Positions 4,296-33,709 of a stretch of 34,042 nucleotides of DNA are shown here, piece by piece (positions within the stretch are counted from its first letter, which is position 1; every line of letters begins with the position of its first letter). The stretch is from Lachnospiraceae bacterium. Its GTDB lineage: Bacteria > Bacillota > Clostridia > Lachnospirales > Lachnospiraceae. The stretch lies in the NCBI GenBank assembly GCA_024403485.1, contig JAKSRT010000016.1:1-34042 (forward strand). The letters run 5' to 3'. A model generated the notes under the pieces. It worked only from the letters and a program-made list of their open reading frames with translations, was not told the DNA's origin and ran no database searches. A program made the translations under genes and the position numbers.

Positions 4296-4346
4296 AGTGC
4301 AGATTCGGAAAAATCGGCAAATCAAATAACATGCTATATGCGATTA

Positions 4347-4379
4347 TCCCCCTTGCCAAGCCGCAAGGGGGATTTTTTT
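4347..4379 (+). terminator. Rho-independent terminator of the RND gene
   Basis: A 9-bp perfect stem TCCCCCTTG/CAAGGGGGA with an 8-nt loop is followed at once by seven T. It lies 51 bases after the RND stop codon and just before the palindrome array. Confidence 0.93.
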
Positions 4380-4388
4380 GCAAGCGAA

Positions 4389-4573
4389 TTTAGGTAATGG
4401 AAGCGGAAAAACGGAACCTGTTACCTAAATTTCCGGAGTGATGCATTCTTTGCAAGCGAATTTAGGTAATAGAAACAGAAAATCGGAATCTGTTACCTAA
4501 ATTTCCGGAGTGACGCAGTTTTGACAAGTGAATTTAGGTAATGGATGGCAAAAAAAGTATTCTGTTGCCTAAA
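4389..4573. repeat. Array 1: three 41-bp palindromes at exact 72-bp period
   Basis: Palindromes start at 4389, 4461 and 4533. Each is 41 bp, opening with TTTAGGTAAT and closing with TTACCTAAA (TTGCCTAAA in the third). The interiors are A-rich and only partly conserved. The two intervening segments are 31 bp each and alike (TTTCCGGAGTGA...CAAG(C/T)GAA). The last palindrome ends at 4573 and supplies the stop codon of the minus-strand nuclease-like gene. The same architecture (41 + 31 = 72) recurs at 33043-33485 with different interior sequence, so this is a dispersed family. Role unknown; it resembles REP/BIME-type elements in layout. Confidence 0.92.
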
Positions 4574-5387
4574 GGAAAAATTGACTGATGATTCTTTCTA
4601 TTTCATTTACATTTAGTGGGGTTAATGATGTTTCGAAAGTCATTATGAGTTGATCTGATGGATATATTCCATTGCTGCAATAGTTTGAAATTTTGTGCAA
4701 GGCATTATCTTTGTATGTAATATTGTCCATTAAGCCGAAATGTTCCCAATAATATATTTTTAATGTCTTTGGATGCATCACTGTGAAGTCAGGATGATAG
4801 GTTACCCCGTTGATATTTAAAGGGAATTCATATTTGAAAGGGATTCCGTGAGAAGATAGACAAGTAGCAATTAATACTTCGGATTTTGAACGAACCATAT
4901 GCCCGGAGATTGTTTTGTGAATCAGTGATTCGGGATGAATTGGGGGAGAGTCTGGTTCTTGATTAAGCCAGGCTTGGATAATGTTTTCGCTGCAGGCATC
5001 AATGGGTATATTTTTGAGATTAAGGTTGTCTTTATGAGACAGATTAGTATTTTTTAATAAGGGACTGTAGCAACGATTTGATAATAAGTTATATGTACAT
5101 TCGGGTTCATTTAATACCTTTAAATATTGTTCGGCGGCATTTTTCTGCTTTTTTAAATCCATAAGCAGAGTACTAAAAAATAGTTTGTTTGCTAACTCCT
5201 GCGCTAAGCTGCTTTGTGAACGTTTTAGATATTTCCTTTTACCGTTTTTTTCAACAAACCATTTGATATATTTTCCGGAAGAATAGCATCGTAGTTTTCC
5301 CGGCGGAAAGTGCTTGATTTGCTCGGTTATTTCGGTTATTTGCAGATTCAAATTATCTATTTCTGCTTTTATTATGTTTGAATTCAC
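4569..5387 (-). CDS. PD-(D/E)xK nuclease-like protein (hypothetical)
   Basis: A 272-residue protein with a GTG start at 5387, chosen because AGGAGGT (5392-5398) sits four bases upstream. Residues 1-95 are predicted mostly helical and charged, with a Lys/Arg-rich patch at 31-56. The C-terminal half has the order expected of a PD-(D/E)xK fold: VRSKSE (Glu170) on a helix, Y-x-H-PDF (Asp200) on a strand, then IYYWEHFG (Glu215). The usual Lys of ExK is not at the standard position; His216 is adjacent. From memory, similar proteins are common and often multicopy in Clostridia and annotated as hypothetical. No signal peptide or membrane segment is seen. The TAG stop lies inside the right arm of the last palindrome of array 1. 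Nuclease activity is inferred from motifs only. Confidence 0.75.
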   Translation of the reverse strand: MNSNIIKAEIDNLNLQITEITEQIKHFPPGKLRCYSSGKYIKWFVEKNGKRKYLKRSQSSLAQELANKLFFSTLLMDLKKQKNAAEQYLKVLNEPECTYNLLSNRCYSPLLKNTNLSHKDNLNLKNIPIDACSENIIQAWLNQEPDSPPIHPESLIHKTISGHMVRSKSEVLIATCLSSHGIPFKYEFPLNINGVTYHPDFTVMHPKTLKIYYWEHFGLMDNITYKDNALHKISNYCSNGIYPSDQLIMTFETSLTPLNVNEIERIISQFFL

Positions 5388-26121: not shown

Positions 26122-28224
26122 ATGGATCAGACAAAGAAACACAAGAAAATAAAAAAAGTCAAAATATGGCCTTCGGTTTTAGGGTTATGTTTAACCTGCT
26201 TTATAATGCCGATTTTATTTGTTATGGTTCTTTCTTTTTACCTTTCGGGTATAACCGGATCACGGTTTGTTGATGGCATTCACAGTGCACAAAGGGCAAT
26301 TGCGGAGTTTGAACTGGTGACTAAGGAAACTCCCGAAAACGAAGAGGCGGTATTTAATTATATTTCCGTCCTGGTGCCCAGTCTTGAAGGAATGTACATT
26401 CTTGATGAAACCGGGAACATTTCGGAGTCTTTTGGCACAAAGGACGTGGAGCTTTCAAGTCTTAAACCTGTAAGCAGAAGAGATGCGTTTTCTGATATTT
26501 CAACCACCGGTTTAGTTGTATATGTTGATCAGTCGATTGCTGATTATATCACAGTTGACGGTGATTCATTTACAATAAACAGTAACCTTATGTCGGAATT
26601 GCTTGGCCAGATTTTTTCCAACGAGAAGTTTATAAACAATATCGGAGATCAGGATTTGTTTTCTGCAGAAGCTTATGGCATAGATTTCTGGTTCTTAAAG
26701 GGTGAAGCTTCGAACGGGTTGTTGGCTAAATACAGATTTTCCTTCTCATATCTGGATTATTTCTATATCATGGGAATATTTATTGTTTCGGGCATTTTCT
26801 TTGTGGCACTTATGTGGTTTTTTGTGTCAACAATCATTCGAAAGATATATTACAAATCGAGAATGTATTCGATTCTATACCGTGATAATGAGACTAACGG
26901 AAAAAACACTCTGTTTTTCCACAGAAAAGCCTGGGAACTGATGAAGGGAAGCGGAAAAAAGAGACAGTATGCTGCGGTTAACATAAGATGCGAAAAATTC
27001 AGATCCCTTCGTTCCTGTTACGGCGTTTTATGGGCGGGACAGCTTTCAACGGCAATATACGACAGTCTTAGAAAAAGCATAACCTCCAAAGAGGTTGTGT
27101 GTTATATGGGGGACGGAGATTTTGGCCTTTATTTAGCTTATAAAGATGTACCGTCTCTTAATTTAAGAATAAAGAAAATAATGGACAGCCTTTCGATGGT
27201 AACTCCGGGGCAGAAATTATATTACTCTGCCGGTGTATGCGCTTCGCCGGGGCCTAAGAGTGATACCGAAGCTACATTAAACAATGCAGCCAATGCAAGA
27301 AGTACAATTACTGATGCCACCGCGGGCGAAATTAAGTGGTTTTCGCAAAAACTTCACGATGAGCAGGTTTGGGAGCGTACTGTAGAAGCGCAGATGCAGG
27401 GTGCTATGGAGCGCAGGGAATTTGAAATGTATCTTCAGCCTAAGTATACCGCCAACGGCGAGGAACTTGGCGGTGCCGAAGCTCTGGTTAGATGGATTCA
27501 CCCCACTGAAGGCTTTATTCCCCCTGGAAGATTTATACCGATTTTTGAAAAGAACGGTTTCATTACCGCTCTTGATGATTATATGATTTCTGAAGTTGCA
27601 AGGGTTCAGGCAAAATGGCTGTCTGAAGGCAGAAAACTTGTGCCTATTTCCGTAAATGTATCCAGAGCACATTTTATGAATGAAAAGCTTGCGGAGCATA
27701 TTCGCGATATAGTAGACAGTTATGGAGTTCCGCATGAATATGTTGAACTGGAACTTACTGAAAGTGCTTTCTTTGATGATAAGCAGACACTTATAGAGAC
27801 TGTCAAGAAAATGCAGGCCTTTGGGTTCCCTGTTTCAATGGATGACTTTGGTGCAGGTTATTCTTCTCTTAATTCACTTAAGGAGTTACCGCTTGATGTG
27901 ATTAAACTCGATGCGGATTTCTTCAGAGGTGAAGAATCCGGAGGAAGAGGTAAGGTTATCGTAAGCGAAACAATAGATCTTGCCAAGCAGCTTGGAATGC
28001 ACATTGTAGCCGAAGGTATTGAAACTCGGGAACAGGTTGATTTCTTAAAGGACCAGCAGTGTGATCTTATTCAGGGTTATTTCTTTGCCAAGCCCATGCC
28101 TGTAAGTGAATTCGAACAGAGGGCTTACGCGGCCAAAAACAGCGAACCGGTAGCCGAAAACAGCGAGCCGGTGGTCGAAAACAGCGAACCGGTAGCCGAA
28201 AACAGCGAGCCGGCAAACGTATGA
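26122..28224 (+). CDS. Membrane-bound EAL-domain cyclic-di-GMP phosphodiesterase with degenerate GGDEF
   Basis: 700 residues from ATG 26122 (AGAGGATATAT upstream). The N-terminus has a basic end, TM1 (about 17-40), an extracytoplasmic sensor segment and TM2 (about 212-235). A GGDEF-like domain follows, but its signature reads MGDGDFGL, so it is probably inactive or allosteric. The EAL domain begins at about residue 430 and keeps every catalytic element: EALVRW (Glu453), SVNVSR, ELTES, MDDFGAGYSS, VIKLD, AEGIET and QGYFFAKPM. It should hydrolyse c-di-GMP in response to an outside signal. The C-terminus is a four-fold heptapeptide repeat (NSEPVAE). It converges with the next gene with a 12-base gap. 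Confidence 0.93.
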   Translation: MDQTKKHKKIKKVKIWPSVLGLCLTCFIMPILFVMVLSFYLSGITGSRFVDGIHSAQRAIAEFELVTKETPENEEAVFNYISVLVPSLEGMYILDETGNISESFGTKDVELSSLKPVSRRDAFSDISTTGLVVYVDQSIADYITVDGDSFTINSNLMSELLGQIFSNEKFINNIGDQDLFSAEAYGIDFWFLKGEASNGLLAKYRFSFSYLDYFYIMGIFIVSGIFFVALMWFFVSTIIRKIYYKSRMYSILYRDNETNGKNTLFFHRKAWELMKGSGKKRQYAAVNIRCEKFRSLRSCYGVLWAGQLSTAIYDSLRKSITSKEVVCYMGDGDFGLYLAYKDVPSLNLRIKKIMDSLSMVTPGQKLYYSAGVCASPGPKSDTEATLNNAANARSTITDATAGEIKWFSQKLHDEQVWERTVEAQMQGAMERREFEMYLQPKYTANGEELGGAEALVRWIHPTEGFIPPGRFIPIFEKNGFITALDDYMISEVARVQAKWLSEGRKLVPISVNVSRAHFMNEKLAEHIRDIVDSYGVPHEYVELELTESAFFDDKQTLIETVKKMQAFGFPVSMDDFGAGYSSLNSLKELPLDVIKLDADFFRGEESGGRGKVIVSETIDLAKQLGMHIVAEGIETREQVDFLKDQQCDLIQGYFFAKPMPVSEFEQRAYAAKNSEPVAENSEPVVENSEPVAENSEPANV

Positions 28225-30873: not shown

Positions 30874-30892
30874 AGCACACAAGTAAATACTG

Positions 30893-31075
30893 ACACGGTA
30901 GAGGTCGCGTTGATCATTAGTAATCAGTCGGATGTGACGGACACAGATGATGACTGATAAAAGGGTGATACGCCGAAGGAACACTTTCGCCGGAAGGTGG
31001 GTCCTGGGAATACATTGAAGAAATGTATAACTGTCATTTGTTTAGGCAAATGGGGAGCTATCATATTTTGAAGAT
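30893..31075 (+). ncRNA. Lysine riboswitch (L-box)
   Basis: The conserved L-box blocks occur in order: GGTAGAGGTCGCG (30898-30910), AAGGGTGATACGCCGAAGG (about 30960-30979), a GCCGG...GGTGGGTCCTGGG segment (about 30992-31009), and GGGGAGCTATCAT (about 31052-31064), which pairs back to the first block. A terminator hairpin follows at 31079. It senses lysine and shuts off dapA-dapB, which make the diaminopimelate precursor. Its position right before dapA fits. Confidence 0.95.
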
Positions 31076-33042: not shown

Positions 33043-33485
33043 ATCACCTAAATTCCATGGCGCGTCGGACTTGAGTTGGCGACTTTAGGTAATAAGTTCC
33101 GGAAACTTGCATCCATTACCTAAAGTCCATGGCGCGTCGGGTTTAAGCCGGCGACTTTAGGTAATACGTCCCGGAAACTTGCATCCATTGCCTAAATTCC
33201 ATGGCGCGTCGGGCTTGAGCCGGTGACTTTAGGTAATAAGTCCCGGAAACTTGCATCCATTACCTAAATCCCATGGCGCGTCGGGCTTGAGTTGGCGACT
33301 TTAGGTAATAAGTCACGGAAACTTACTTTCATTACCTAAATTCCATGGCGCGTCGGGCTTGAGCCGGTGACTTTAGGTAATAAGTCCCGGAAACTTGCAT
33401 TCATTACCTAAATTCCATGGTGTGCCAGGCCTTCAAGGAGCGAGTTTAGGTAATGGATGCCGAAAAACAGCGCATGTTGCCTAAA
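33043..33485. repeat. Array 2: six full 41-bp palindromes plus a half unit, 72-bp period
   Basis: TTTAGGTAAT starts at 33084, 33156, 33228, 33300, 33372 and 33445; each palindrome is 41 bp and ends in ATTACCTAAA or TTGCCTAAA. Spacing is exactly 72 bp except the last step (73). A right arm alone (ATCACCTAAA, 33043-33052) in the correct phase marks a truncated first unit. The 31-bp segments between units start TCCATGGCGCG and hold a second small stem. The first five interiors read AAGTCCCGGAAACTTG-CATCC; the sixth differs, opening GGATGCC. All frames carry stops within each unit, so it is non-coding. Same family as array 1. Confidence 0.93.
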
Positions 33486-33627
33486 AGCAGATTGAATAAG
33501 AGTTAGTTGTGTGTTAATACCTTGTCAACGGATTACCGATTGCCGGATGATAATAAGAAAAACATCAATGAGTATATAAAAAGCAACATTAATGCAAAGC
33601 TTCAAAGAAATAATGGCAGAGTCGAAA

Positions 33628-33709
33628 AACAGGCCGGAAAAAGGGGCTCCCGCCTTGGAAAACAGGCCGAAAAAAGGGGCTCCCGCCTGAAAAACAGGCC
33701 GGAAAAATA
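33628..33709. repeat. GC-rich direct repeat, 2.5 copies of 32-33 bp
   Basis: Units begin at 33628, 33661 and 33693 with AACAGGCCG, an A-run and GGGGCTCCCGCCT. The third is cut short. Each unit can form a small stem AGGC...GGG-GCT-CCC-GCCT. It lies between array 2 and the terminator of the cold-shock gene; no function is evident. A 67-codon open frame crosses it but has no ribosome site. Confidence 0.8.

Follow-up and report, generated by a model that had tools for sequence, protein, structure and literature searches.

We propose, with moderate confidence, that a gene for a PD-(D/E)xK-like protein and the palindromes beside it make up a REP/RAYT-like two-part repeat system, in which an unrelated nuclease with a sequence-reading N-terminus would act on duplex DNA. 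Among homologues of this gene we observed association with palindromic arrays, co-variation of half-site and protein, co-occurrence of gene and palindromes across genomes, helical phasing of the arrays, and changes in unit number at orthologous sites. An earlier note on this DNA had suggested a REP/RAYT-like system with a different nuclease; the association, the co-occurrence and the co-variation support that suggestion.

The window locus and its protein

The window, by which we mean the whole stretch of 34,042 nucleotides analysed, carries three 41-bp palindromes at 4389..4429, 4461..4501 and 4533..4573 (no strand assigned), with start-to-start distances of 72 and 72 bp. They run into the gene for the PD-(D/E)xK-like protein at 4569..5387 on the minus strand (272 aa, GTG start), and both the coordinates and the exact 72-bp period agree with the earlier description. 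Palindrome 1 reads TTTAGGTAAT ... GTTACCTAAA; the right arm is GTTACCTAAA in palindromes 1 and 2 and GTTGCCTAAA in palindrome 3, and palindromes 2 and 3 deviate from perfect symmetry. The stop codon, which had been placed in the last right arm, is indeed there: TAG, the complement of 4569-4571, lies within the right arm of palindrome 3. This gene-side array starts just past a terminator-like hairpin (4346..4373, plus strand) found 3' of the preceding gene. A second, dispersed array of the same palindrome, with 72-bp (once 73-bp) repeats and without such a gene, was found at 33044..33485 (no strand assigned), some 28.5 kb away where 28.6 kb had been given; the three homologues of the host genome are located elsewhere. 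Within the window the strict palindrome pattern matches four times, each time in the second array, versus 0 in 100 dinucleotide shuffles, and a pattern one letter shorter also catches gene-side palindromes 1 and 2. A chance origin of the arrays was rejected by shuffles (0/100 for the window, 0/110 for Markov shuffles of the homologue loci) and by control ORFs. The palindromes were also considered as a known RNA element and rejected as such: Rfam gave only one match in the window, a lysine riboswitch elsewhere (30891-31068, plus strand, 110 bits, well over the Rfam cut-off). The claim that the gene has its own promoter could not be established: there is one 10/12 match at 5563-5535 on the minus strand, but promoter-like sites in the region number 5 against a shuffle mean of 5.8. 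Two tandem repeats were also seen, one of 33 bp at 33624-33707, near the second array, and one of 21 bp at 28132-28213, at the end of a long open frame.

The C-terminal nuclease-like domain of the protein (residues 151-271; 4575..4937, minus strand) matches the C-terminus of PADLOC PDC-S68 at E=1.9e-30. The C-terminal 120 residues match the same profile end in 75/75 members (best E 6e-36), a HEAT/PD-DEXK model matches 52/75, and PHROG endonuclease and Holliday-junction-resolvase models match weakly and in few members. Invariant residues in 75 aligned homologues include E170, D200, F201, E215 and H216, so the three motif residues singled out earlier are constant throughout: Glu170 in R-S-K-S-E (codon 4878..4880), Asp200 in P-D-F (4788..4790) and Glu215 in W-E-H (4743..4745), all on the minus strand. 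E215 precedes H-x, not x-K, and the usual (D/E)xK lysine is absent from its textbook place; we use the name PD-(D/E)xK because of profile kinship and motif order. The PDC-S68 match in every member and the invariant E...D...E set argue for a nuclease core, and the protein is likely to cleave DNA.

The N-terminal part (approximately residues 1-90; 5118..5387, minus strand), a putative half-site-reading domain, has no convincing match to a known family. Pfam and NCBIfam gave scattered single-member matches at the N-terminus and no family that applies convincingly; in the window protein the N-terminal match to DUF4297_antiphage (E 0.0037) is far below cut-off. A sequence search for solved homologues in the PDB likewise gave no convincing match (best E 0.03), and hhalign found none between the N-terminus and the tyrosine-integrase arm-binding domain, a weak test made with one integrase sequence. 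No match to a Y1/HUH transposase was found in the window protein, nor for the 75 members among the 25 of 48 families listed.

Arrays beside the gene, their phasing and their half-sites

Arrays were scored within 800 bp of each homologue. When exact 8-mers had to occur two or more times per orientation, 53/110 homologues scored, versus 4/89 control ORFs taken from their loci and 0/110 Markov shuffles. Allowing one mismatch and requiring a score of 5.5 or more gave 66/110, 3/89 and 0/110 (Fisher p = 7e-19). We kept the 5.5 threshold unchanged for new loci, namely 49 from family and phylum scans and 60 hand-picked from the listed family matches; the hand-picking left out several at contig ends or with an internal stop, and some for no set reason. 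These 109 loci yielded 101 full-length homologues, of which 12 were dropped for being at least 95% identical to earlier ones, leaving 89. In this later deduplicated set 58/89 homologues were array-bearing against 5/89 shuffles, the sole control here. The expectation that homologues lie next to arrays more often than random genes was thus borne out in both sets when set against the 3/89 control ORFs. The array is upstream of the gene in 53/65 cases in the first set and 46/56 in the second (one of the 66 arrays was dropped from the orientation count, as all its copies point one way). Counting against our reading, the 800 bp searched around 35-40% of homologues showed no detectable array. Three of eight C-terminal-only proteins (L170, L172 and L173) also reach at least 5.5, in wider 1400-bp windows that include coding DNA; most of these frames run off their loci, so they are not a fair array control and speak neither for nor against.

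The arrays are phased with the DNA helix. Distances between half-sites of the same orientation, in the range 40-130 bp, cluster at 52-53, 63-64, 73-74, 84-85, 94 and 106 bp, that is, at 5 to 10 turns of B-DNA. At 10.5 bp the per-locus medians reached R = 0.78 over 64 loci; the 54 loci of the second set gave R = 0.745. When one array was taken per 50%-identity cluster, R was 0.81 at 10.5 bp over 63 clusters, 1000 jittered controls giving R of at most 0.43, and 58/63 clusters fell within 1.75 bp of a whole-turn count where a third would be expected. In many arrays one inverted-pair spacing is constant and the other varies, in some by about one turn: L098 has a fixed spacing of 27 with a partner of 57 or 67, and L053 has 29-30 with 33, 44 or 66. 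The whole-turn periods together with these spacing shifts therefore point to proteins on one face of duplex DNA. Recognition of single-stranded hairpins was rejected as the main mode on the ground that array periods follow helical turns. For five single palindromes, hairpin folding was nevertheless better than for shuffles. Arm variants were one-sided in 35 cases and two-sided in 0 (59 palindromes), and 31 versus 0 in a set of 81 palindromes. This fits independent half-sites, but it is weak evidence given that only 1.6 two-sided changes were expected with independent arms in the first set, where no arm could have more than one mismatch.

Half-site and protein co-vary. In the first set, half-site similarity correlates with protein identity (Mantel r=0.33; none of 2000 permutations did as well, the best giving r 0.10), the rank correlation being only 0.08, and the signal comes from close relatives: 26/30 pairs at least 60% identical have similar half-sites (similarity >0.6), and for pairs below 60% mean half-site similarity is at baseline. 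In the enlarged set of 121 arrays r was 0.21 (0/1000 permutations). At a stricter similarity cut of 0.65, 33/59 pairs at least 60% identical were similar, and half-sites therefore do change within that range of identity. N-terminal identity (approximately residues 2-90) predicts the half-site with the C-terminal part controlled (partial r 0.184, 0/1000), while C-terminal identity with the N-terminal part controlled does so weakly (partial r 0.043, 34/1000). From this correlation we infer that the N-terminal part may be the half-site reader. Several same-motif pairs have no other common gene in the 1-5 kb compared (for example L058/L101/L090/L190, L005/L023 and L024/L028), showing that the half-site travels with the gene; inheritance of shared flanks was accordingly rejected as the sole cause of shared half-sites. 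Other pairs, such as L011/L024, L021/L022, L009/L010 and L025/L029, have neighbouring genes in common and are apparently orthologous loci. Altogether, these comparisons of sequence give strong support to the claim that the enzyme recognises its cognate half-site, which we consider very probable. We also noted that L007, L020 and L015, whose proteins are only 41-43% identical, have the core TATCCCA in common with different preceding bases; this may reflect convergence or long conservation.

Gene and palindromes across genomes

The host genome (G000; 2.19 Mb, 73% complete) contains 32 palindromes of the form TTTAGGTAA-N-TTACCTAAA, compared with 0 for a reversed-pattern control and 0 in 17 congeneric genomes. 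We examined 13 stretches around palindrome sites, and all consist of runs of strict half-site alternation, 32/40 = 72 bp, with a few stray one-mismatch half-sites at the edges; 12/13 arrays do not overlap open frames of at least 100 aa. Across the 59 palindromes of these stretches and the window, 496/531 arm position pairs are unchanged, a conservation that is partly built in by picking palindromes at no more than one mismatch per arm. Agreement within a site is 81% for palindrome loops and 68% for array linkers; between sites it falls to 41% for loops and 31% for linkers, which argues that each site expanded or was homogenised locally. The palindrome and its spacing appear to be the main things common to all sites of this genome. 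Linkers and loops this little alike between sites mean that recent whole-array copying is not visible, which weighs against our reading.

Three diverged homologues are found in the host genome. The other two are 38% and 29% identical to the window protein, and different repeats lie beside each: L003 has an upstream array of 63-bp period with the quite different half-site CATCTAAA, and L002 has degenerate upstream repeats of the TTTGGTAGGCC type (score 5.0, under the 5.5 threshold). Within the genus the gene occurs in 11/18 genomes at E <= 1e-5, with as many as 10 matches in one genome; in a few cases two matches are fragments of a single gene. Of 42 within-genome pairs that align (25 loci, six genomes), one exceeds 70% identity (L005/L023, 79%) and a second exceeds 60% (L004/L014, 61%). 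In this partial view, which samples part of the genus matches, near-identical gene copies appear rare and palindromes many.

We then compared gene and palindromes for three half-site families in 18 congeneric genomes, giving 54 cells. Palindromes of the TTTAGGTAA family occur only in the host genome. Those of the TTGACTAA family occur in G006 (8), G007 (17), G012 (7) and G015 (21) and in none of the remaining genomes, with a cognate gene in three of the four (G006, G012 and G015). Palindromes of the TTATC[C/G]CAAT family occur in G007 (16), G008 (26) and G015 (29) and in none of the remaining genomes, with cognate genes in 3/3: G007 holds L020, G008 holds L005/L023 and G015 holds L007, all flanked by half-sites of this family. 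Two cases count against our reading. The closest gene in G007 (identity 61% with L024, 71% with L028) adjoins TAGGGTCAT instead, and G008 has a like gene (L017) yet no TTGACTAA palindromes. A further gene, L015 in G005, adjoins a similar core, [G/C]TATCCCA, whose preceding base keeps the array outside the searched pattern; we counted it as another half-site, not as cognate. Gene and palindromes agree in 53/54 cells, G007 being the exception, or in 52/54 if L015 is taken as cognate (Fisher p = 5e-8 for 53/54, a value that overstates the evidence as the genomes are related). Arrays are thus not equally common in genomes lacking the gene, the outcome that the earlier note had said would speak against it: there is one discordant cell, or two with the gene of G005 as cognate. 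The assembly of G007 is 96% complete and holds 17 TTGACTAA palindromes with no cognate gene found, and one four-unit TTGACTAA array is located some 750 bp into contig C109. The cognate gene may be missing from this assembly or may have been lost.

In G015, G008 and G007 the TTATC[C/G]CAAT palindromes form a discrete element of about 230 bp, typically with four palindromes spaced approximately 71, 51 and 71, and many copies carry GTTATGTAAACC and its reverse complement between the outer palindrome pairs. Among 20 copies aligned, the flanks look unrelated, four orthologous pairs excepted. Five CCC sites are orthologous between G015 and G008: each holds four palindromes in G015, whereas G008 has one, one and two at three sites and four at the other two. 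Since in G008 the genes belonging to this clade go with CGC half-sites, the CCC elements of G008 appear orphan and partly decayed, five sites being too few for a decay test. Two shared intergenic sites carry a CCC element in G015 and a CGC element in G008, too diverged for conversion in place to be told from replacement. A comparison of sister genomes for empty sites found no clean one, which counts against the insertion step of our reading; one of the sites compared differs in G007 by a segment of 3.3 kb. Another dispersed repeat family, approximately 70-190 bp long, was seen at L132 (9518-9704) and at dozens of places in G007 and G008.

In the host family, Lachnospiraceae, a homologue is present in 99/348 sampled genomes at E <= 1e-40 (78/282 good-quality ones), and nearly all matches at this cut-off are full-length among those listed. 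In a phylum sample of 398 genomes 13 match at E <= 1e-15; five have full-length copies, all in the host family, and the other eight match in the C-terminal part only, mostly inside larger proteins. The best 80 of 554 relatives in named genomes are mostly from Lachnospiraceae and other Clostridia and also include Treponema, another spirochaete, Fibrobacter and Saccharofermentans. Among these best 80 of 554, arrays lie beside 6/6 spirochaete, 3/3 Fibrobacter and 1/4 Saccharofermentans loci. No array was found for one relative from a phage collection.

Mechanism, alternatives and known systems

We infer that the enzyme binds and cleaves DNA and causes the repeats to spread. The gene product would be a sequence-specific DNA nuclease whose N-terminal part reads a half-site of approximately 9-16 bp and whose C-terminal PD-(D/E)xK-type domain cuts or nicks near half-sites. 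A dimer, or an assembly along the array, would bind inverted half-site pairs on duplex DNA, and array units whole helical turns apart would place the bound proteins on one helix face. One gene (rarely two) per half-site family would then sustain many intergenic palindrome copies, much as RAYT does for REP. Of the possible routes we favour cleavage or synapsis at half-sites with subsequent recombinational repair among units, which would copy, expand or contract units in place and occasionally seed a new site. We hold this reading at no more than moderate confidence because its weakest step is that cleavage drives the repeats. More tentatively still, and at somewhat under even chances, the system may be a separate kind of selfish repeat: a restriction-fold nuclease with its own half-site-reading N-terminus, helical-register assembly on duplex DNA, palindromic arrays driven by cutting and copying, and dozens of mutually blind specificities in one bacterial family.

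The main rival holds that the nuclease was domesticated and has kept only its DNA binding, with the arrays as operators or chromosome-organising sites maintained by host selection. This is unlikely, though it deserves real weight: the arrays are mostly upstream (53/65 and 46/56), in the first 53 of these the closest half-site stands 70-370 bp away from the protein start, the helical phasing fits cooperative binding, and half-sites are retained between varying linkers, a pattern that resembles selection on sites. Catalytic-type residues are nevertheless invariant in 75 proteins, the dispersed arrays are particular to a species and vary together with the gene, and one subfamily has an element of fixed architecture at many unrelated places that looks mobile. 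A second rival is a phage-defence or restriction-like nuclease, with the palindromes as a side effect, decoys or self-recognition marks; the nuclease domain does match the C-termini of candidate defence proteins (PDC-S68, 75/75) and of plasmid proteins annotated as AAA ATPases or UvrD/RecD/RecQ-type helicases. We regard this as improbable, since the PADLOC match is confined to the nuclease domain and a chromosome with 32 or more full palindromes would presumably expose an unprotected restriction host to dangerous cutting. It is very improbable that an ordinary Y1 (IS200/RAYT-type) transposase spreads the palindromes with the nuclease gene merely nearby. The host genome does have one Y1 transposase match, but the 3.3 kb around that gene contain no array, only one isolated near-half-site, and we rejected this transposase as the driver; moreover, the half-site co-varies with the nuclease, and helical phasing favours duplex sites over hairpins.

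REP/RAYT is the best-known case of a bacterial enzyme living with its own palindromes, and a second, unrelated solution would, if true, show that such repeat populations arise by convergence. In the excerpted text of Nunvar et al. 2010 (PMC2817692), the hallmarks of RAYT are palindromes beside the gene, co-evolution, and repeat abundance that tracks the gene. Going by excerpts on REPtrons and BIMEs (PMC2817692; Bertels and Rainey 2011, PMC3116915), the present system is similar in having a gene beside palindromes of alternating orientation, in that gene and repeats co-vary and gene presence goes with repeat abundance, and in that repeats are dispersed and species-specific; a gene 3' end drawn into the array, seen here in the window, is reported in them for four rayt genes. 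The enzymes are unrelated, a PD-(D/E)xK-type protein here and an IS200/IS605-related Y1/HUH tyrosine transposase in REP/RAYT. The excerpts also describe a GTAG tag, whereas the present half-sites have no common tag, and often more than 100 pattern-exact palindromes per genome against 7-32 here in the families counted. The present arrays lie mostly on one side of the gene, unlike those of rayt in these excerpts, so 'flanked' applies only loosely, as 'beside'. Compensatory arm changes, which the excerpts call common in REPINs, were not seen here, and this is weak evidence as few were expected. Array periods of whole helical turns are a further difference from REP/RAYT. As far as these excerpts define it, the present system works like a REPtron and is not a member: three hallmarks are present and the defining enzyme is absent. 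The CGTC-tagged palindromic repeats, as given in excerpts of PMC3733652, are likewise dispersed palindromes without an attached Y1 transposase, but they are reported to have no dedicated adjoining transposase gene, whereas most gene loci tested here adjoin their own palindromes.

In the full text of open-licence PMC papers, preprints not included, our search found REP/RAYT work and no account of a PD-(D/E)xK gene accompanied by palindromes of its own, and nuclease genes with matched palindrome arrays seem to be undescribed. Homing and free-standing endonucleases are sequence-specific nucleases whose effect could rest on break repair, as here. Unlike with homing endonucleases, the likely recognition sites here multiply and also adjoin the gene, and near-identical gene copies are rare. 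The 121 array-bearing loci are a natural library pairing protein with half-site, from which an N-terminal recognition code can be worked out. The helical phasing adds an exact and falsifiable lead on how the protein assembles on duplex DNA. For many of the arrays between genes in gut bacteria, the label of anonymous spacer would no longer hold, and where lineages carry different half-sites (CCC in G015, CGC in G008), the decay and replacement of a repeat population can be followed. PDC-S68 proteins have the C-terminal nuclease-type domain in common with the present family, but their profiles are approximately 1200-1270 positions long and the family matches only the C-terminal end. The same nuclease domain was also seen in larger proteins (L169-L176) and in plasmid matches H4-H13, the plasmid proteins being annotated as AAA ATPases or UvrD/RecD/RecQ-type helicases; such larger proteins are a possible origin of the present family.
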